Assembly: GCA_020352895.1 (NCBI GenBank)
Contig: CP070685.1
Span: 2,845,724 to 2,878,781, forward strand
Origin: Phycisphaerales bacterium
Lineage (GTDB): Bacteria > Planctomycetota > Phycisphaerae > UBA1845 > G020352895
Direction: 5' to 3'
Length of the DNA stretch: 33,058 bases
The notes under the pieces were generated by a model. It saw only the letters and a list, made by a program, of their open reading frames with translations. It searched no databases and was not told where the DNA came from. The position numbers and the translations under genes are program-made. Of the stretch, positions 7,517 through 29,719 are shown piece after piece; position 1 is the first letter of the stretch, and every line of letters begins with the position of its first letter.

Positions 7517-9382
7517 ATGGTGAGTGAGGGTGTGAGGCGAAGACAATTCTACGTTTGGACGCTGGCAGTGGTCGGCGTATGGATCTACCCGGCGGCGGCT
7601 CAGGATCAGAGTCCTGCTGAGCCGGCCGTCCATGTCACCGGGCAGGTGTTCGACCATCTGGGCGCTGGCGTCGCAGGCATGGAGGTGGAGGTGTACCGGG
7701 CTGAAGACGGGAAGCCGGTCGGTGAAGCGTTGGCCAAGTCGACGACCGAGCAATACGGCGACCTGTCTATCGAGTTGCCGCCCGGCTCCCAAGGGCGCTT
7801 CCTGGTCCGATTGAGCAAGACCGGCTACGCGACCGTAGAACAGGTTATCGAGATTCGGCCGGATGAGCCGCTGCCTTTCGTGGATGTTCGGGCCGTGGGG
7901 GCGTTTCAGATGGAAGGGCGGGTCAGGAGCGCTGCAGACGACTCACCCATCGGGCGGGCTGAAGTGACCGTCTCGGATGGCTTCGCCGTCTGGAAGGGGC
8001 GGTCCGACGAGCAGGGGCGGTTCATGATCAAGGACCTTCCGCCCAAGCGGCTCGAGCTGAAAGTGGAGGCCGAGGGACACGCCACAGTCCGCCAGCCGGT
8101 CACGATCGCCAAGCAGGCCGAGCCGATTGAACTTTGGATGGAGGCCGGGTGGTCCGCGACGATTCAAATCGTCGGCCCGTTGGGCACACCGATTCCCGAG
8201 GTTGCGGTCGAGATGCTGACTGATATGCGCGAAAGCCTTCACACCGGCGTAACCGACGAGAAAGGCGAGGTTACTTTCACGGGTCTGGATCCCGCTGCGG
8301 TGCTGTTGCAGATGCGCTTCACACACTTCGCCCTCCCGCGCACGGATGAGTTTGAGTACGAGTTGATGCGCTCCGACGAGGAGATGCACCTGCGGGAGCG
8401 GTTTGAGGTGGAGCTGGCCGGGCGGGTCAAGGGCGTGGTCCGCGATGCGGCCACGGGCGAGCCCGTCTACAGCGCCCGAGTGATGGCCGGCGAATACATC
8501 GGGCGCGGCATGCCCAAGGCGTGGACCGATCCCGATGGCCAGTACTCCTTGACTTCCCTGACCCCCGGTGCGGTGGTGCTGACTGCACATCATGCTGATT
8601 ATGCGCCCGCGCTGACTGAGGTGGAGATCGGCTCCGGCGAGACCAGAACGGTTGACCTGCAGTTGGAGAAGGGGAGGGGCATTCGCGGACAGGTGGTGGA
8701 TGTGGACGGTCGGGCGCTGAGCGGGGCGCAGGTCCAGGTGACCTTGTGGCGGGATTGCCAGACGGCCGGGCTGATCACTCTGACTGACGAACAGGGCCGG
8801 TTCACCCTCGAGCATGCGCCGAACGATTCGCTCGGCCTGGCGGCCAGCCTGAGTGGGTATCGGTCGCAGGAGCGCCAGATTACCGATGAAAGTGAGGTGC
8901 GCCTGGAGCTGAAGCCGTTTGCGCCCGATGCCGGTCCGGCCGCGCCGGCCGCCAAGTACGCTGTGGGAGACGCGGTTCCGGTCCTGGCAAGCTTTGAAAC
9001 GCTGGATGGCACGAAGATGTCACTGACCGGGCTCCGTGGCAAGGTCCTGCTGATGGACTTTTGGGCGACGTGGTGCGGGCCGTGCCTCGCGGAGATTCCG
9101 AACCTCAAGAAGGTATACGAGAGATTCGGTCAGCGCGAGGACTTCGTCATGATCAGTGTGAGCCTGGACCAGAGCAAGGCGCGCCTGGCCGACTTCGTGA
9201 AGGAGGAGAAGATCGCCTGGCCTCAGGTGTTCGACGGCAAGGCCTGGGAGGCGGAACTGGCCGAGGCATTCGGCATTCAGGCCATTCCGGCAACGTTCCT
9301 GATCGACAAGGAAGGCCGGGTCGCGGCCGTCAACCTCAGCGGTGAAGCCCTGGTGGGCCAGATCGGCAAGCTGTTGGAATGA
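7517..9382 (+). CDS. Exported protein with carboxypeptidase-regulatory-like repeats and C-terminal TlpA-type thioredoxin domain
   Basis: A 621-residue protein. A signal peptide (basic RRR at 7-9, hydrophobic core, cleavage near AAAQD at 25-30) sends it out of the cytoplasm. Four beta-sandwich repeats of the carboxypeptidase-regulatory type are visible; each starts with a G-x-V/R motif and has a DEQGRF or DPDGQY turn (near residues 41, 133, 306 and 393). The tail (about 480-621) is a TlpA/ResA-like domain with active-site WCGPC at 519-523 and the cis-proline loop IQAIPATFLID. It probably reduces or shuffles disulfides of envelope proteins. ATG 7517 has AAGGAG five bases before it. The next gene, also exported, starts 127 bases downstream and may be cotranscribed. 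Confidence 0.88.
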   Translation: MVSEGVRRRQFYVWTLAVVGVWIYPAAAQDQSPAEPAVHVTGQVFDHLGAGVAGMEVEVYRAEDGKPVGEALAKSTTEQYGDLSIELPPGSQGRFLVRLSKTGYATVEQVIEIRPDEPLPFVDVRAVGAFQMEGRVRSAADDSPIGRAEVTVSDGFAVWKGRSDEQGRFMIKDLPPKRLELKVEAEGHATVRQPVTIAKQAEPIELWMEAGWSATIQIVGPLGTPIPEVAVEMLTDMRESLHTGVTDEKGEVTFTGLDPAAVLLQMRFTHFALPRTDEFEYELMRSDEEMHLRERFEVELAGRVKGVVRDAATGEPVYSARVMAGEYIGRGMPKAWTDPDGQYSLTSLTPGAVVLTAHHADYAPALTEVEIGSGETRTVDLQLEKGRGIRGQVVDVDGRALSGAQVQVTLWRDCQTAGLITLTDEQGRFTLEHAPNDSLGLAASLSGYRSQERQITDESEVRLELKPFAPDAGPAAPAAKYAVGDAVPVLASFETLDGTKMSLTGLRGKVLLMDFWATWCGPCLAEIPNLKKVYERFGQREDFVMISVSLDQSKARLADFVKEEKIAWPQVFDGKAWEAELAEAFGIQAIPATFLIDKEGRVAAVNLSGEALVGQIGKLLE

Positions 9383-20637: not shown

Positions 20638-22236
20638 TCATCGCGACATTAGCTCGGGCAGTTCGCGGCTGCGGAGCAGGGCGGCGGAAAGCAGATAGGC
20701 GGCCACGCCGGTCACGACCAGGACCGCCAGGCGCAGGATGGGCCCGGGCTGGCCCGCCCAGGCGGCCAAGATCCTATCCGCGCCGAGAACGGCCGCGGCC
20801 ATCACCAACCCGCCGACCAGCGACCGCAAGCCCGAGGCGCCCAACTCAACCCAGGGCAGCGGGGCCAGTCGCCCGGTCAGAATCCGCCCCAACCAGAAGA
20901 ATTGCACCACGCCGCAGATGGCCGTGGCCGCACCCAGGCCTGCCTCCTCCCACCGCCAGACCAGCGTCAGGTTCAGGGCCAGGTTAACTACCACCATTGC
21001 GGTGGCGACGCGCATAGGCGTCAAGCGGTCACCCATGGCGTAGAAACCACGGATGACGATGTGGTTCAATCCGTATGCCCACACACCGGCCGCGTACGCC
21101 GCCAGAGTCAGCGATACTCTCCGCGTGTCTTCTGCGGCGAACTCGCCGCGTTCGAAGAGCCCCTGCACCAGTGGTTGGGCGGTCACGATCAGCCCCAACG
21201 TGGCAGCCACGCCGACGAAGAAGACGGTCCGCACCGACGTGGCCAGCGCGTCCCGCAAGCTCGCGCGGTCGTCGGCCGCGGCATGGGCACTCAACGTCGG
21301 GAACACGGCTGTCGCGAAAGCCAGACTGAAAACGCCCAGGGGGAATTGGTACAGCCGCTGGGCGTAGTAGAGCACCGCAGGCGCTCCTTCGTGCGGCACG
21401 CAGAGAAGGGCCACAACCGTATCGCCCAGCGTGTTGATCTGTACGGCTGCGAGTCCAATGATCATGGGCAGCATAGCCGTGGCGATGTTTCGCAGTCCGG
21501 GGTCGCTGCGATCAAAGCTCCAGCGGGCACGGAACCCGGCGGCCCGCAAGGCGTGCAGTTGCATGATGAGCTGAAGCACCCCAGCCACGAGGACCGCCCA
21601 GGCCAGCGCCCAGATTCGCCACACGGGGGCTTCCGGGCGCCATGCATTGGCCCCGAACAGCGTGCCAATCAACACCAGATTCAGCAGGATTGGCGCGCTG
21701 GCTGGCACGGCGAAGCGGCCCCGAACATTGAGCACTCCTCCCGCGGCGGCCACCAGGCAGATGAGCACGGCGTACGGCAGCAGTAGCGCCGTCATGGCCA
21801 GGGTCAATCCGGCCGGTCCCTCCAGCGGCAGCAGCAACCACAAGACCAGAAGTAGACCTTCGCCCAGCAGTACCAGCGCCGACACAACGAAGGCCAGCCA
21901 TGAGAACACGCGCCCTGTCAAGGCCGCGCCGCCGGCCTCGCCCTCATCGTGGAGCCGCTTGGCCAGCACCGGTATCAGTGCTGCGGAGAGGGCCCCCTCT
22001 CCGAACAGCCGCCTGAACAGGTTGGGGATGGTGAAGGCTACCGCAAAGGCGCTGGCCAATCCGGTGGCGCCGAAGAAGTATCCAAAGGTTATGTCTCGGG
22101 CGAACCCGGAAATGCGCGATATCAGTGTCAGCAGGGAGACCACCCGGGCCGAGCGCAGGAACCCGTTCCCTCCTTGTTCTGCCCCGGCTGCTCGATCATC
22201 GGTCATGAGCGCTTCGTGGGCCCTGGGCCGAGTCAA
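20638..22236 (-). CDS. murJ: Lipid II flippase MurJ (MviN family)
   Basis: A 532-residue membrane protein with about 14 transmembrane helices, in the MOP superfamily; it moves lipid-linked peptidoglycan precursors across the membrane. Family marks include SARVVSLLTLISRISGFARD, FGATGLASAFAVAF, IPNLFRRLFGEGALSAALIP and LYQFPLGVFSLAFATAVFPTLS. Start: TTG 22236 has GGAG nine bases upstream, the same spacing seen for several genes here; ATG 22206 is the alternative. It follows the second small Cys-terminal gene by 22 bases and is probably cotranscribed with it from the promoter at 22838-22866. Confidence 0.95.
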   Translation of the reverse strand: MTRPRAHEALMTDDRAAGAEQGGNGFLRSARVVSLLTLISRISGFARDITFGYFFGATGLASAFAVAFTIPNLFRRLFGEGALSAALIPVLAKRLHDEGEAGGAALTGRVFSWLAFVVSALVLLGEGLLLVLWLLLPLEGPAGLTLAMTALLLPYAVLICLVAAAGGVLNVRGRFAVPASAPILLNLVLIGTLFGANAWRPEAPVWRIWALAWAVLVAGVLQLIMQLHALRAAGFRARWSFDRSDPGLRNIATAMLPMIIGLAAVQINTLGDTVVALLCVPHEGAPAVLYYAQRLYQFPLGVFSLAFATAVFPTLSAHAAADDRASLRDALATSVRTVFFVGVAATLGLIVTAQPLVQGLFERGEFAAEDTRRVSLTLAAYAAGVWAYGLNHIVIRGFYAMGDRLTPMRVATAMVVVNLALNLTLVWRWEEAGLGAATAICGVVQFFWLGRILTGRLAPLPWVELGASGLRSLVGGLVMAAAVLGADRILAAWAGQPGPILRLAVLVVTGVAAYLLSAALLRSRELPELMSR

Positions 22237-22258
22237 GCCGTGCCACTCCGCGGTTGAC

Positions 22259-22456
22259 TTAGCAGCTTGTGGAAAGCCCGGGGAATACGAAATCGATGAA
22301 CGTCGGCGTCAGAAAGTCGCAGAAAGGAGGGCAGATTTGCGGCCCGCCGCCGGACGTCTGGGCCTTGACCACACTGGTCAGCCCCAGGACCAACAGTGTA
22401 GCCTGGACGAACAACCTCTTGACCCGGATCGTCACTGGAGCACCTGGTCCATACAT
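22259..22456 (-). CDS. Small exported protein with C-terminal cysteine (second of pair)
   Basis: Up to 65 residues. From the internal GTG (22435) the N-terminus TIRVKRLFVQATLLVLGLTS followed by VVKAQT is a good signal peptide, with cleavage expected after KA. The mature part is about 32 residues: SGGGPQICPPFCDFLTP, TFIDFVFPG and a final STSC. Three cysteines are present, the last at the very end. An ATG start at 22456 would add seven residues. It lies 22 bases before murJ. No known family recognised. Confidence 0.5.
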   Translation of the reverse strand: MYGPGAPVTIRVKRLFVQATLLVLGLTSVVKAQTSGGGPQICPPFCDFLTPTFIDFVFPGLSTSC

Positions 22457-22478
22457 CTTCTGCTAGCCCTTTCGGGTG

Positions 22479-22516
22479 GCAAGGCCCCCGGACTTGAGAG
22501 AACCGGGCCCCTTGCC
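22479..22516 (-). promoter_or_regulatory. Long hairpin between the two small genes
   Basis: On the minus strand GGCAAGG and CCCGG pair with CCGGG and CCTTGCC across an 11-base loop, with a two-base G-G mismatch in the middle. There is no T-run, so it may act as an attenuator, processing site or mRNA stabiliser rather than as a terminator. Confidence 0.4.
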
Positions 22517-22555
22517 GTGGTCCCCGACAAGTCACTCCACTGGCCGCAGGCTGGA

Positions 22556-22735
22556 CTAGCAGCCGCTCTGGTTGAGCCAAGTGCACGTGTCTCCCAGTAG
22601 TGGGGAGACAAAGATGTCGAGTAGCGCCACGCCGGCGAGCTGAAGCACGGTCTGTCCGATGCAGCCACCGATCTGATAAACCGTTCCCACGGCCGCTGCG
22701 GCCAACACAATCATCATCGCTTTTCTGTGCGACAT
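22556..22735 (-). CDS. Small exported or membrane protein with C-terminal cysteine (first of pair)
   Basis: A 59-residue protein. MSHRKAMMIVLAAAAVGTVY looks like a signal peptide or membrane anchor; QIGGCIGQTVLQLAGVALLD and IFVSPLLGDTCTW follow, ending LNQSGC. Three cysteines are present, one of them the last residue, as in the neighbour at 22259. The IGGC could also be a lipobox (Cys25). ATG 22735 has GGAG nine bases before it, and a near-consensus promoter lies about 100 bases upstream, which supports a real gene despite its size. No known family recognised. Confidence 0.55.
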   Translation of the reverse strand: MSHRKAMMIVLAAAAVGTVYQIGGCIGQTVLQLAGVALLDIFVSPLLGDTCTWLNQSGC

Positions 22736-22837
22736 CTTCGTTTACTCCATTGCCTGGTTCCGGGTTCGAGACGGGGAGGCACGGTCGCGCCACTGCACAA
22801 GGCCCCCACTTACATCCGTGCGCAGGCGACTCCCTGT

Positions 22838-22866
22838 ACTCTAAACGCCGCCAAATGGCCGGTCAA
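22838..22866 (-). promoter_or_regulatory. Promoter of the small-protein/murJ operon
   Basis: On the minus strand TTGACC (22866-22861) and TAGAGT (22843-22838) are exactly 17 bases apart, matching five and four of six consensus bases. Transcription would start near 22831, giving a leader of about 95 bases to the small gene at 22735. Confidence 0.6.
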
Positions 22867-23128
22867 ACGCACCGGGGCAGAGCCGAAACGTGACATCCCC
22901 CGCCTTGGGCGACTCCTGAGCGGTCCTCCTGGCCCTTGGAGCCGGTGCTAGTACTGGAACAGAGAATGGACAAGGTTTTGCTCGCAATATGTGGGGGTTG
23001 CCTTGTGAATAACCACGAAATCTGGAGCACTCGTCCTGCCCAGCGCATGAGCTTGAGAAATCTTCCCTGCGCAATCGGCGTTGGCGAATGAGCTTACAAC
23101 GATCGAGCCGAAATTCGCCCCCTTTCGA
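22867..23128. other. Divergent intergenic region
   Basis: Lies between the minus-strand promoter at 22838-22866 and the plus-strand promoter at 23129. No gene is apparent; the open frames lack any recognisable feature. Confidence 0.4.
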
Positions 23129-23157
23129 TTGACAGGCCCAAATTCATGGGTTATATA
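23129..23157 (+). promoter_or_regulatory. Promoter of the ribonucleotide reductase gene with overlapping palindrome
   Basis: A perfect TTGACA at 23129-23134 and TATATA at 23152-23157 with a 17-base spacer. GGGTT-ATATA-AACCC (23148-23162) straddles the -10 element and could be a repressor site. It does not match the NrdR box as I know it. Start of transcription would be near 23164, giving a leader of about 170 bases that includes the hairpin GCGAC-T-GTCGC at 23241-23251. Confidence 0.7.
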
Positions 23158-23337
23158 AACCCTTGCCCACTACATGTCGTGGGTGCCAGCCAGAAAAACT
23201 AGCGGGTAGAAGTTCATCTGAGCGATATTTGCAGGGGGATGCGACTGTCGCTCCCGGGGATTTTGTGCTCCCAGGTCGTTGCTTCTGCGCTGGGATGGAT
23301 CGAATGCCGGATCAGGCGTCGAACGGAGTCACCCGAA

Positions 23338-25962
23338 ATGATCGGTTCGCAGGATGCGCAGGTTACCCCTTCCGAGATTATCGAGGATTGCCCGGACGTC
23401 ACGGGTAGTGTCCTCAGTGAAAACGCTCTTCGCGTCCTGAAGGCGCGATACCTCAAGAAGGATTCAAGCGGGCGGATCATCGAGACGCCCCGAGGCCTCT
23501 TTGAACGCGTGGCCCGAACGATCGCCCAAGTCGAGGCGGGCACATACGGTGCCCCTCAGGAGGTCGCAGACGAGTGGAAGAGGCGCTTCTTCGACCTGAT
23601 GTGGTCGGGCCAGTTCATGCCCAACAGTCCAACCCTGATGAATGCCGGGCGGGAGATGGGCATGCTCAGTGCGTGCTTTGTGCTACCGGTCAAAGACAGC
23701 GTTAGCGACATCTTTGACACCATCAAGCACACCGCCCTGATCCAGAAGGCGGGCGGGGGCACCGGCTTCGCATTCGACGAGCTGCGCCCCACCGGCGATT
23801 ACATTCGGAGTTCCGGCGGGACCACCAGCGGGCCGATCAGCTTCTGGCGCGCGTTCTCTGAGGCTACCAATGCCATCCAGCAAGGCGCCTTTCGCCGCGG
23901 CGCCAACATGGGCATGCTTTACATCCATCACCCGGACATCCTCAAATTCCTGCATGCCAAACAGGATCTGACCCAGTTCAACAACTACAACATCTCGGTC
24001 AAGGTCACCGATGAATGGATGGACCGCTTCCTGGCTGATCCGGACGGGCCGCACGTCGTCCGCAATCCCCGCGACCAAAGAGAGTATTACCTGCCCAAAG
24101 ACCTGGACATTTGGTCTTACGAGATGCGCCATCTGAGGCCACGCCTGGGCGACGACTCCGACTTGGCCCTCCGCGAAGAAGTCTATTCACGCCGCGAAAT
24201 CTGGGACATCATCATCACTAACGCCCACGCGACCGGAGAGCCGGGCGTTGTCTTCATCGACCGTATCAATGAGCATAACCCCACTGCACATGTGGGCCGA
24301 ATCGAGGCCACCAATCCCTGCGGTGAACAGCCGTTGCTGCCCTACGAGGCCTGCAACCTCGGCAGCATCAACCTCGGCGCGTTCGTCGTGGACCCATGCA
24401 CGGACAACGCCCATGTCGACTGGGACGAGTTGCGTGAGACGGTACATCACGCGACACGCTTCCTCGACAACGTGATCGATGCAAACCGTTACCCGCTGCC
24501 TGAGATCGAACATATCTGCAAGTCCAATCGCAAGATTGGCCTGGGCATCATGGGATTCGCCGATGCACTCCACATGCTGGGCATCGGCTACAACGCCGAC
24601 GATGGGCTGCAATGGGGAGAGCGCTTCATGCGCTTCGTCAACGAGGAGGGGCATCGGGCCAGCGAGAAGCTAGCCCTGGAACGTGGGAGCTTCCCCAATT
24701 GGAAGGGCTCGACCTGGGACGTCGAGTTCCACCGCCCCATGCGGAACGCCACCGTCACCACGGTGGCTCCCACCGGCACCATCAGCATCATGGCCGACTG
24801 CTCCGGGGGCATCGAGCCGCTGTTCGGCCTGGCCTTCCAGCGGAACGTGCTCAAAGGCCAGGACCCCGGCAAGAGCCCCATGATCCAGATCAGCAAGACT
24901 TTTCGGCGTGTTGCCGAAGAGCGAGGGTTCCTGAGCGAGGGTTTGATGGAACGCGTTGCCAGGGACGGCACCCTCGCTCATTTGCCTGAGATTCCCGAGG
25001 ATGTGCGCCGCGTGTTCGTCTGCTCGCACGATATCGACCCGGAGTGGCACGTGCGCATGCAGGCTGCGTTCCAGAAGCATTGCGACGCTTCCATCTCCAA
25101 GACCATCAATTTCCCGCATGAGGCCAGCGTTCGGGATGTGGACGTCATCTACCGCAGGGCCTACGAGCTCGGGTGTAAGGGCGTGACCGTCTACCGGGAC
25201 GGCTGTCGAGAGAGCCAGCCCATGGCCCTTTCGGAGTCGAAGGGTCTCAGGGGCAGCCGGGTTCAACCAGGAGGGAGCTCCGAGGGCCAGACCGAGTCGC
25301 GCGATCCCAAGACGGGCGTGCTCGTTCCTCGGGATTTGCCGGAGATTGTCAGCGGATTCCGCGTCAGGCAAATGACTCCCTTCGGCAACATGCACGTCAA
25401 TCTTACCGTCAACCCGGCCAGCGGACGCGAACTCGAAGTATTCGCTCAACTGGGCAAGGGCGGCGATCTGGCCAACAGCGACTTGGAAGCACTCTGCCGC
25501 ATGATCTCGCTGTGGCTCCGTGCCGGCGGGTCGCTCAAGCAGGTCATCCATCAACTCAAGGATATCGGGTCCTCGCTTCAGGTGGCCACCAAGGAAGGCA
25601 AGATCATGAGCCTGGGTGACGGCCTGGCCCGGGCTCTGCTGAAGTACTACCGAGCCAAGACGCACTTCGGCCTACAGAAGTTGCTGCTCGGAGAGGTGGA
25701 CTTCAGCGAACTGGACAGCGTGCCGGGGGCCCCAAGGTCGCGGGCGCCCGGCAACGGAAACGGCCACAAGGGAGGCAACGGCCACGGTCCGTCGGCCAGT
25801 GAGGCACGCGCCGTGGCCGATTCGGCCCTGAGCACACCGTGGTCGCAGACGTCGAGGGTCCAGGGCTACAAGCTCAAGTGCAACGAATGCGGCCAGCCGC
25901 TCGAGTTTACTGAGGGCTGCGTGAAGTGTAGCAATCCGGAATGCGGTTACGCAGCCTGCTGA
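23338..25962 (+). CDS. nrdJ: Vitamin B12-dependent (class II) ribonucleotide reductase
   Basis: An 874-residue enzyme reducing ribonucleotides to deoxyribonucleotides using adenosylcobalamin to generate the radical, so it works with or without oxygen. It shows FMPNSPTLMNAG, LSACFVLPV with the first active-site cysteine (Cys113), GGGTGFAFDELRP, and the radical loop ATNPCGEQPLLPYEACNLGS with Asn326, Cys328 and Glu330. VTTVAPTGTISIMADCSGGI follows. The C-terminus (about 846-874) is a Cys-rich tail with six cysteines (LKCNECG...CVKCSNPECG) that may bind zinc or reduce the active site. ATG 23338 has GGAG nine bases upstream; an ATG at 23239 directly abuts its G-run and is less likely. No intein seen. 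Confidence 0.95.
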   Translation: MIGSQDAQVTPSEIIEDCPDVTGSVLSENALRVLKARYLKKDSSGRIIETPRGLFERVARTIAQVEAGTYGAPQEVADEWKRRFFDLMWSGQFMPNSPTLMNAGREMGMLSACFVLPVKDSVSDIFDTIKHTALIQKAGGGTGFAFDELRPTGDYIRSSGGTTSGPISFWRAFSEATNAIQQGAFRRGANMGMLYIHHPDILKFLHAKQDLTQFNNYNISVKVTDEWMDRFLADPDGPHVVRNPRDQREYYLPKDLDIWSYEMRHLRPRLGDDSDLALREEVYSRREIWDIIITNAHATGEPGVVFIDRINEHNPTAHVGRIEATNPCGEQPLLPYEACNLGSINLGAFVVDPCTDNAHVDWDELRETVHHATRFLDNVIDANRYPLPEIEHICKSNRKIGLGIMGFADALHMLGIGYNADDGLQWGERFMRFVNEEGHRASEKLALERGSFPNWKGSTWDVEFHRPMRNATVTTVAPTGTISIMADCSGGIEPLFGLAFQRNVLKGQDPGKSPMIQISKTFRRVAEERGFLSEGLMERVARDGTLAHLPEIPEDVRRVFVCSHDIDPEWHVRMQAAFQKHCDASISKTINFPHEASVRDVDVIYRRAYELGCKGVTVYRDGCRESQPMALSESKGLRGSRVQPGGSSEGQTESRDPKTGVLVPRDLPEIVSGFRVRQMTPFGNMHVNLTVNPASGRELEVFAQLGKGGDLANSDLEALCRMISLWLRAGGSLKQVIHQLKDIGSSLQVATKEGKIMSLGDGLARALLKYYRAKTHFGLQKLLLGEVDFSELDSVPGAPRSRAPGNGNGHKGGNGHGPSASEARAVADSALSTPWSQTSRVQGYKLKCNECGQPLEFTEGCVKCSNPECGYAAC

Positions 25963-27400: not shown

Positions 27401-29719
27401 ATGGGGCGCACGATTCGTAGCGAGTCACATCGACGCAATCGTGCCGCTGTCGCGCCCACCAGCAGCAGGCCGCCTTTCGTTTGTTTGCTAATCAGTGTTC
27501 TGCTCGGAGTATCCATGGCCGGGCTGAGCGCGGCCATGCTGGGATTCTTTCGTGGCGCGTTCGATCCCTCGCCGCAGACAACGATCATCGTCCTGGTAGG
27601 CCTCATTACCGGTGTGGCTCTCGGGCCATGGCTGCCACAGGGCCTGATCCGCTTTTTCACATCACGGGCCGCGGCCATAGCGGCGCGCGCCCCGCGACGC
27701 GGCCGACGGCAGCCGCTGGTGCTGTTGACGGCGGCTGCGCCGGAAGCCAACGAAGACCGGCGGCTGCTTCTGGCCAGCTCCTGTCTGCTTGGTGCGCTGG
27801 CCATTCTGTTTGTCGCTGTGATGGCCGATCCGATCCGCGCACTCTGCGAGTGGCTGCGGACCGATTTCCTTTGGGTACCCGCCGTGTTGCGCCTCACGGA
27901 CCTGCTGGTCGCTACGGCCGTTCATTTCGTGCCCGCGAGCTTGCTCGGTGTCGCCCTGGTGTGCTCGCTGGGTATGGGCAGCGATTCGCCGATGGGGCGC
28001 GCGGTTGCGCGGCATATTGCTGCCGTGGCCCTCGGGCTGGGACTCGGCCTGAGCCTCTTTCTGTGGTGGTTTCGATTCTCGGTCGGCTCGTTGCTCATCC
28101 TGCTTGTTTCTTCGGTGCCCCCGTTGGTGGCCGTCATGATCGCGCTGCTGAGCGCGTCCGGAGCCGACCCGAAGGGCGATCAAGCGCGACGAGTCGGGAC
28201 GCAGCCCGGGCAATCCGCCGGGACTTTTCCCGAGCTGGGGGGCAGCGGCTTGGGGCTTCTGTTGGCCGCACTGGCTGTCTGGGCCCTGTCGCTGGCTCTG
28301 GCTGGTGCGGTGTGGCATGAGATCGGGCTGGCCCGCCCGGCCACTTACTTTCCACCAGCGGCAATCATGGCGACGTGGCTGGTCAGCATAGCCGTGGGTG
28401 TCCGGCTTGGCGTCCCGCGGGCCGAAGCTGCCAGTCAAACGCTCGGGGCAGGCGGCATACGCCTGTGCATGGCCGGTCTCGGAACGGCCCTGGCGGTGTC
28501 GTTGATTTGTGCGACGCCGCCACTGTTGGCGGTCTCACGGGGCACGATTACGGGCCGTAGCTGGCCGCTATGGCTGGCCATCGGCGTGCACGGGATTGTC
28601 GGCGGATTCGCACTACCAGCGATTCTGCGCGCCGCTCTGAGCCGATTCGCCACGCGAGGCCTGGCTCACGCCGTTATCGTTACGACTATTGCCGTGGCCG
28701 TCATGGTTGGTCTGGTCCCTTCCGGCCTCCGGCTGCTGACCGGTCCGCGCACGTTGATTGCAGCGTGTCTGGCTTGCCTGTTCCAGGTCATCGCTGGCGG
28801 CATCCTGGTCATATACGATCCGCTCGACGCCCGGCGATCCCACCGCCGGAAGCTGTTTGCCGTCTTTGCCTCGCTCCTGTTGCTGATTCTGGTTCTGCCA
28901 AGAGCTGCGCTGAGCTGGCCTCTGGGCCTAAGAGGCGTTTCAGCGGGACCGGAAGCCTTCGACGACTCCGGGGCGCGAGCGGCTTCAACAGGTACGCTGC
29001 CCGCGGGGCCTCTCAGTCCGGAGGACTCATCTGCAATGGCATCCCAATCACGCGGCGTGATTGACAGACTTTTGTCCCTGTGTCCACGGGGCAGCAAGGT
29101 TTGCCTGATCGGCGGTGAACTCAAATCTTTGCGAGGTCTTTCGAGCGGGGCCCGTTTTGCGGGGTTGCGCATCGACCATTGGCCCCATCAGGGCGACTTG
29201 AGTGTGGGTCGGCAGCTTGCGTCTCTGGCCCGGCTGCGCGTGGCGCATCAGCGCTACGACCTGATCATCCTTGGACCGGCCGGTCAGGGCGTTCGGCCGA
29301 ATCGAGATCTTTGGACGCTGGAAACGTTGCGGCGAGTCGCCGGGCTTGCGGCCCCGAAGGGACTCGTTGTCGTGCGCATTCCGACGACTGACCTCCGGGC
29401 CGCGGATATCCAAACGGTGGCGCAAACGTTTCGCAGTGCCTTCCGCGGTCACGGCGCGTGGTTCGTGTATGGCGGCGACGGCCGCCTGCCTGATGAGTTG
29501 TGGCTCTTGGGCCTTCGTGGGCCGCAGACATCGGGACTGCTGATCGCATCGTTAGCTGCCGGAGGTGCGCCTCCCGCGCCCATCCGAGATTTGTTGGCGG
29601 GAACGGATTCCCCTAAGACGCACAGCGCCGAGCATCCCCGCCTGCGCGGGGCCACGCCCTCCGCCTCATCGCAGACCCATGCCGAAATCGCCGGCCTGCT
29701 GACGCGCGCCGGTTCGTGA
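27401..29719 (+). CDS. Large membrane protein with spermidine-synthase-like C-terminal domain
   Basis: A 772-residue protein. About 13 hydrophobic segments span residues 25-510. The soluble tail (about 535-715) reads KVCLIGGELKSLRGL, YDLIILGPAGQGVRPNRDLW, LAAPKGLVVVRIPTTDLRAA and GAWFVYGGDGRLPDELWLL, in the order of the Rossmann fold of membrane-fused spermidine-synthase-like proteins. The glycine-rich SAM-site motif is degenerate and the usual catalytic Asp is not evident, so aminopropyl transfer is doubtful. The last 60 residues are low-complexity. ATG 27401 has no strong ribosome site; it follows birA by 70 bases and may share its transcript. Confidence 0.7.
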   Translation: MGRTIRSESHRRNRAAVAPTSSRPPFVCLLISVLLGVSMAGLSAAMLGFFRGAFDPSPQTTIIVLVGLITGVALGPWLPQGLIRFFTSRAAAIAARAPRRGRRQPLVLLTAAAPEANEDRRLLLASSCLLGALAILFVAVMADPIRALCEWLRTDFLWVPAVLRLTDLLVATAVHFVPASLLGVALVCSLGMGSDSPMGRAVARHIAAVALGLGLGLSLFLWWFRFSVGSLLILLVSSVPPLVAVMIALLSASGADPKGDQARRVGTQPGQSAGTFPELGGSGLGLLLAALAVWALSLALAGAVWHEIGLARPATYFPPAAIMATWLVSIAVGVRLGVPRAEAASQTLGAGGIRLCMAGLGTALAVSLICATPPLLAVSRGTITGRSWPLWLAIGVHGIVGGFALPAILRAALSRFATRGLAHAVIVTTIAVAVMVGLVPSGLRLLTGPRTLIAACLACLFQVIAGGILVIYDPLDARRSHRRKLFAVFASLLLLILVLPRAALSWPLGLRGVSAGPEAFDDSGARAASTGTLPAGPLSPEDSSAMASQSRGVIDRLLSLCPRGSKVCLIGGELKSLRGLSSGARFAGLRIDHWPHQGDLSVGRQLASLARLRVAHQRYDLIILGPAGQGVRPNRDLWTLETLRRVAGLAAPKGLVVVRIPTTDLRAADIQTVAQTFRSAFRGHGAWFVYGGDGRLPDELWLLGLRGPQTSGLLIASLAAGGAPPAPIRDLLAGTDSPKTHSAEHPRLRGATPSASSQTHAEIAGLLTRAGS

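Follow-up and report, generated by a model that had tools for sequence, protein, structure and literature searches.

Two very small genes ahead of murJ in a planctomycete belong to lineage-restricted families and probably encode exported envelope proteins

The window analysed here, a stretch of 33,058 nucleotides from a Phycisphaerales genome held in a single contig of 3.6 Mb, carries ahead of murJ two open reading frames so short that one must ask whether they are genes at all and, if so, what kind of protein they make. ORF1 (22556-22735, minus strand) starts with an ATG and encodes 59 amino acids; ORF2 (22259-22456, minus strand) encodes 65 amino acids from its ATG. An in-frame GTG at 22435 would shorten ORF2 to 58 amino acids, in agreement with the likely GTG start of its nearest homologue, found in genome G031 (labels in G, L and f are working handles for genomes, loci and families). 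The original prediction described two tiny genes of 59 and up to 65 codons, with three cysteines each and the C-termini QSGC and STSC, and they are present as claimed, the cysteines of ORF1 lying at positions 25, 51 and 59. The next gene downstream of the pair, on the same strand, is indeed murJ (20638-22236, minus strand; Pfam MurJ, E = 2.5e-101).

The expression signals attributed to the pair were largely recovered. The sequence TTGACC-17-TAGAGT lies where it was said to lie (22838-22866, minus strand) and qualifies as a sigma-70-like promoter-like site by consensus match alone; it has 9 of the 12 consensus bases, and shuffles of the 1.2-kb stretch average 0.2. As for the ribosome sites, both of which had been called good, ORF1 has a good Shine-Dalgarno sequence (GGAG, 9 nt ahead of the ATG) and that of ORF2 is weaker. 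The GC content by codon position, 0.58/0.45/0.73 in ORF1 and 0.53/0.50/0.73 in ORF2, is like that of MurJ and of the RNR gene, whereas an overlapping frame of 186 amino acids, with 0.74/0.59/0.50, is unlike them. A hairpin between ORF1 and ORF2 was considered and rejected, being no better than in shuffled sequences (z = 0.21). An Rfam scan of the 2.2 kb around the pair (21500-23700) gave no relevant match, and a sub-threshold match to a plant snoRNA (E = 0.21) was discarded. Elsewhere in the window, a 772-amino-acid ORF (27401-29719, plus strand) has no Pfam or NCBIfam match, and a protein of 621 amino acids (7517-9382, plus strand) combines carboxypeptidase-regulatory-like repeats with a C-terminal redoxin domain.

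ORF1 is one of many short lipoprotein-like proteins that form a family extending throughout the order. Used as a lone query, it found short frames carrying the same leader, and a profile model, A4, was built from 40 rows, namely ORF1 and 39 of 71 translated places; the places left out nearly repeated a row already kept, were unclear or longer, or plainly did not belong (e.g. L126, L132, L142, L143, L145). A4 matches 112 of the 114 genomes of the window's order, with 633 matches in all, a median of 5 per genome and a best E per matched genome that is always 8.5e-4 or lower. Since the rows were drawn from 25 genomes, 89 contributed none, and 87 of these were matched too; the two order genomes without a match have a completeness of 77% and 55%. 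Beyond the order, the family is nearly absent: in a sample of 294 genomes of the phylum, A4 finds the window's own genome and two weak matches (E about 8e-4, in frames of 419 amino acids), and in a sample of 397 genomes of the class, 98 of the 106 matches fall within the order, the remaining 8 being weak (E from 4.8e-5 to 8.1e-4). The matching frames listed are mostly of 55 to 160 codons. ORF1, itself a row of the model, scores E = 2.3e-13 in its own genome, and has in a short frame the leader end that defines the family, F/Y/L-Q-x-G-G-C. The window's genome encodes at least five proteins with this common leader and differing tails. Neither Pfam (a single DUF1392 match, E = 0.009, was taken as chance) nor NCBIfam recognised a family in the 40 rows, and comparison of the ORF1 model with the PDB revealed no solved relative, matches to proteasome subunit 2 (E = 0.0085-0.023) being also taken as chance.

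ORF2 represents a second family of small secreted-type proteins. As a lone query, it retrieved relatives mainly in family f7, in frames without stops, the best being that of G031, of f5 (E = 4.5e-10). A profile of 17 rows, ORF2 itself among them, was searched in the 397-genome sample of the class and found 17 clear genomes (E ≤ 8e-18; the next match is at 6e-4): the window's own (E = 5.8e-18), G031 and 15 of f7. G068 is a further f7 carrier, so that relatives exist in 16 of 17 f7 genomes, G048 being the one missed, and in two others. The consensus of the family reads xSWxRIxTxAGLxVLGxTPWAxAQLPxPxxPAxCPPLTAFATPTLFDxFWGTTPIRFP, and ORF2 has its core, L-G...A...P..CPP...TPTxxD. Inspection of the alignment shows small residues at -3 and -1 (VKA, LSA, AQA etc.) before Q or A, and by the -3/-1 rule the mature part of ORF2 is predicted to be the 33 residues that follow VVKA (22262-22360, minus strand), containing the core CPP...TPTxxD. 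Among 14 members from f7 (91 pairs), pN averages 0.218 against a pS of 0.606, a value near saturation; the closest pair has 0.016 and 0.302. The family is thus under purifying selection. Pfam gave no family for any of the 17 rows, nor did NCBIfam for ORF2 itself, and the ORF2 model had no match in the PDB. The literature listings searched showed no description of the ORF1 family, which does not prove that none exists. Small lipoproteins are already known as a kind; what appears to be new is an order-wide, multi-copy family with a Q-x-G-G-C leader.

The anatomy of this leader suggests what becomes of ORF1. Residues 1 to 25 (22661-22735, minus strand) carry a net charge of +2 and 19 uncharged residues and end in YQIGGC, in which Cys25, the invariant cysteine, is predicted to be the lipidated residue; I-G-G-C fits the strict lipobox. 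A variable tail, IGQTVLQLAGVALLDIFVSPLLGDTCTWLNQSGC (22559-22660, minus strand), completes the protein. In the 40 chosen rows of A4, to which the following counts refer, the cysteine is present without exception and the leader is net positive throughout (+1 to +5), with an uncharged run of 13 to 19 residues, mostly 15 to 17, ahead of the cysteine; Q occupies position -4 in 34 rows, F position -5 in 23, and G position -2 in 24. The lipobox is loose: the strict pattern [LVI][ASTVIG][GAS]C fits 13 rows, a relaxed form of it 34. The part from the cysteine onward has 18 to 55 residues, is usually acidic and contains 2% K+R. The glutamine at -4 is kept in L182, L183 and L184, copies from the window's own genome that lie outside the rows, and is absent from all 15 long lipoprotein-like ORFs picked by pattern in stretches of the same genomes. 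Because of this absence, the leader is more than the standard signal used locally; it has the look of a lipoprotein signal to which a family-specific residue has been added. The genome of the window encodes both Lgt (PF01790, E = 4.2e-36) and LspA (PF01252, E = 1.2e-27). The idea that the tails form amphipathic helices was dropped, the effect being weak (mean z of 0.76 over 39 rows, -0.17 for the tail in the window).

The two outcomes by which the original prediction would have fallen, lack of conservation and disrupted frames, were looked for in relatives of both ORFs in other genomes and not found; in these relatives the genes are short, of the exported type and with their reading frame kept. 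We consider it probable that both ORFs function as genes, each for a very small exported protein of the envelope: ORF1 for a lipoprotein and ORF2 for a secreted protein of the signal peptidase I type. The ORF1 signal would direct the protein through Sec; Lgt would then attach a lipid to Cys25, and cleavage by LspA just ahead of that residue would yield a lipid-anchored peptide of 35 residues. The ORF2 leader would be cut by signal peptidase I (at VVKA|Q here and at AQA|QL in relatives) to give a free peptide of 33 residues. Both genes might be co-transcribed with murJ, and their products would act in the envelope in a structural or accessory role. Such a role, also raised in the original prediction, is plausible and is in keeping with frequent envelope-gene neighbours, MurJ here and a lipid A acyltransferase, SH3_3 or Amidase_2 proteins elsewhere; against it, the constant neighbour of ORF2 in f7 is a POT peptide transporter and no wall gene.

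The alternative that survives best, unlikely as we hold it to be, is that ORF1-type proteins are single-span membrane mini-proteins and no lipoproteins, with Q-x-G-G-C closing the span as a motif for helix packing or redox chemistry. A hydrophobic stretch does precede the cysteine, the strict lipobox is found in only 13 of the 40 rows, and the glutamine, as said, was not seen in 15 ordinary lipoprotein-like ORFs. AlphaFold2, run on the single sequence of ORF1, gives one long helix of modest confidence (pLDDT 70.6, pTM 0.35), a model that does not discriminate. The invariance of the cysteine and the glycine at -1 in 35 of the 40 rows speak for a lipoprotein, as do the near-constant uncharged run that stops exactly at the cysteine and tails almost devoid of lysine and arginine. 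A bolder reading, which we regard as speculative and rather improbable, takes the FQxGGC leader to be a signal reserved for sorting or processing in a single planctomycete order: it would carry about five unrelated small tails per genome to a special envelope site by means of a machine that reads the glutamine at -4, and ORF1 with ORF2 would be one such pair ahead of murJ.

Two features to which the original prediction gave weight, the terminal cysteine and the linkage to murJ, do not extend to the relatives examined in other genomes. Besides ORF2, its alignment has 16 rows, none of which ends in a cysteine, and among the 83 ORF1-type members examined 2 do so, both from the window's genome; the absence of a terminal cysteine from relatives outside that genome rules it out as a mark of the families. 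The second of the two is L182 (6012-6287, plus strand; C1:2841550, about 4 kb before the start of the window), an ORF1-type gene of the DPTVR tail class that, like ORF1, ends in Cys (DKLC). The conserved cysteine in each protein is the first one, Cys25 in ORF1 and Cys42 (65-residue numbering) in ORF2, that of CPP, the sole cysteine common to all rows of the ORF2 alignment; the other two of ORF2 occur in none of the 16 other rows. In the window's genome, three of six small leader proteins (ORF1, L182 and ORF2) end in Cys versus 12 of 632 long ORFs, a difference to which a post-hoc binomial test assigns a probability of about 1e-4; these ends may be a trait of the lineage or luck.

They could also be taken to mean that ORF1 and ORF2 are precursors of modified peptides, of the RiPP-lipoprotein hybrid type, with a conserved leader, a variable core and a C-terminal cysteine that is modified. 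Precursors of MNIO enzymes with an SPII or SPI signal and a C-terminal Cys motif are described in a preprint (PMC12636315), and in the ORF1 family the leader positions near the cysteine are better conserved than the tail. We nevertheless find this reading very improbable: relatives have no C-terminal cysteine, 39 of the 40 A4 rows have no cysteine in the tail, Pfam recognised no modification enzyme among the 18 other window ORFs scanned, and the tail classes keep housekeeping neighbours.

As to murJ, 29 other loci of the gene were compared (the best 29 from 101 matching genomes, six of them with a cut flank), and in none does a relative of ORF1 or ORF2 lie within 1.5 kb; nor do the flanks of ORF2 relatives, at 17 loci, contain a murJ. 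The murJ operon as a conserved unit is ruled out by these two sets of loci. Among the window's neighbouring proteins that were tested, the DEAD-box helicase alone is matched in the surroundings of these 17 loci, and at a single one. In f7, a POT-family peptide transporter lies near the relative of ORF2 at 16 of 16 loci, and at 12 of the 16 a lipid A acyltransferase lies beside it; of the 17 loci, 10 contain an OPT transporter and 8 an M20-family peptidase. The f7 loci L093-L108, with POT and OPT transporters and an M20 peptidase by the ORF2 relative, have the look of a peptide-uptake neighbourhood.

The neighbours of ORF1-type genes vary with the tail. At all 6 loci examined for the tail class ..FVFGAFN.., the window genome's own copy L183 among them, the gene comes after that of an SH3_3 protein, and at 4 of these 6 it adjoins the gene of a GpsA-type dehydrogenase; genes of the class DPTVR.. 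come after an Amidase_2 protein in 3 of 7. At L146, in the window's genome, and at L189, in G001, an ORF1-type gene adjoins the same three genes, one of which is of the TsaD family (Pfam). The other two are, from the look of their sequences, presumably phosphoesterase-like and YidC-like. The tail closest to that of ORF1, QLIGGLLLDAVVGPLLGDP, is found in G005 (L144/L201), in a gene two genes away from an acyltransferase that shares 35% identity with one next to ORF2 in f7; and an ORF1-type gene lies within about 8 kb of the ORF2 relative in 4 of 16 f7 loci. These shared surroundings are a loose, circumstantial link between the two families, and between them and envelope genes; guilt by association is weak here because the neighbours differ between families.

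ORF1-type genes also occur in tandem, by twos at L189 and L110; at L193 (6449-7637, plus strand; genome G021), four stand in a row with four different tails. Short, hydrophobic, several to a genome and arrayed in this way, they might be small toxins or bacteriocin-like peptides, which we hold to be highly doubtful: the leader is of the export kind, the Rfam scan around the pair gave nothing relevant, and the near-universal presence in the order, together with neighbours fixed for each tail class, indicates a housekeeping function and so argues against a toxin. That ORF1 and ORF2 are chance open frames ahead of murJ, in a window that has 238 frames of 50 amino acids or more, is refuted by homologues that preserve frame, size and leader across many genomes, the recurrence of both frames marking them as more than chance, and in the ORF2 family by a pN well under pS.

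If very small exported envelope proteins are what these genes encode, several of them per genome, defining an order and matched by no Pfam or NCBIfam model, would amount to an innovation of this lineage, of a kind that could account in part for the unusual envelope of planctomycetes. By means of the leader, all the members could simply be found, and one could ask whether the glutamine at -4 directs sorting.

Among known systems, the nearest in kind are the prolipoproteins processed by Lgt and LspA, of which Lpp is a very small bacterial example. The ORF1 family resembles them in its positive N-terminus, hydrophobic run, [GSA]-C where the cut is predicted and short mature part, and both enzymes are encoded in the window's genome; it departs from the standard in the conserved Q at -4, the frequent F at -5 and a loose -3 position, and unlike that of Lpp, the tail of the window's ORF1 ends in Cys and not in Lys. 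With the MNIO-dependent RiPP-lipoprotein hybrids such as DybA (PMC12636315), ORF1 shares small size and a lipoprotein-type signal, and the copies in the window share a cysteine near the C-terminus with hybrids that exist in SPII and SPI versions; the enzyme tree of that preprint counts Planctomycetota with its smaller clusters. In contrast to these hybrids, the Cys motif of ORF1 and ORF2 is not conserved in relatives, no modifying enzyme was recognised among the 18 window ORFs scanned, and the ORF1 family is distributed like a housekeeping family. Near-universal in one order and almost absent elsewhere, the ORF1 family is reminiscent in its distribution of the gene families of unknown function, synapomorphic at the level of orders, of the FESNov catalogue (PMC10849945), which may already contain parts of it.
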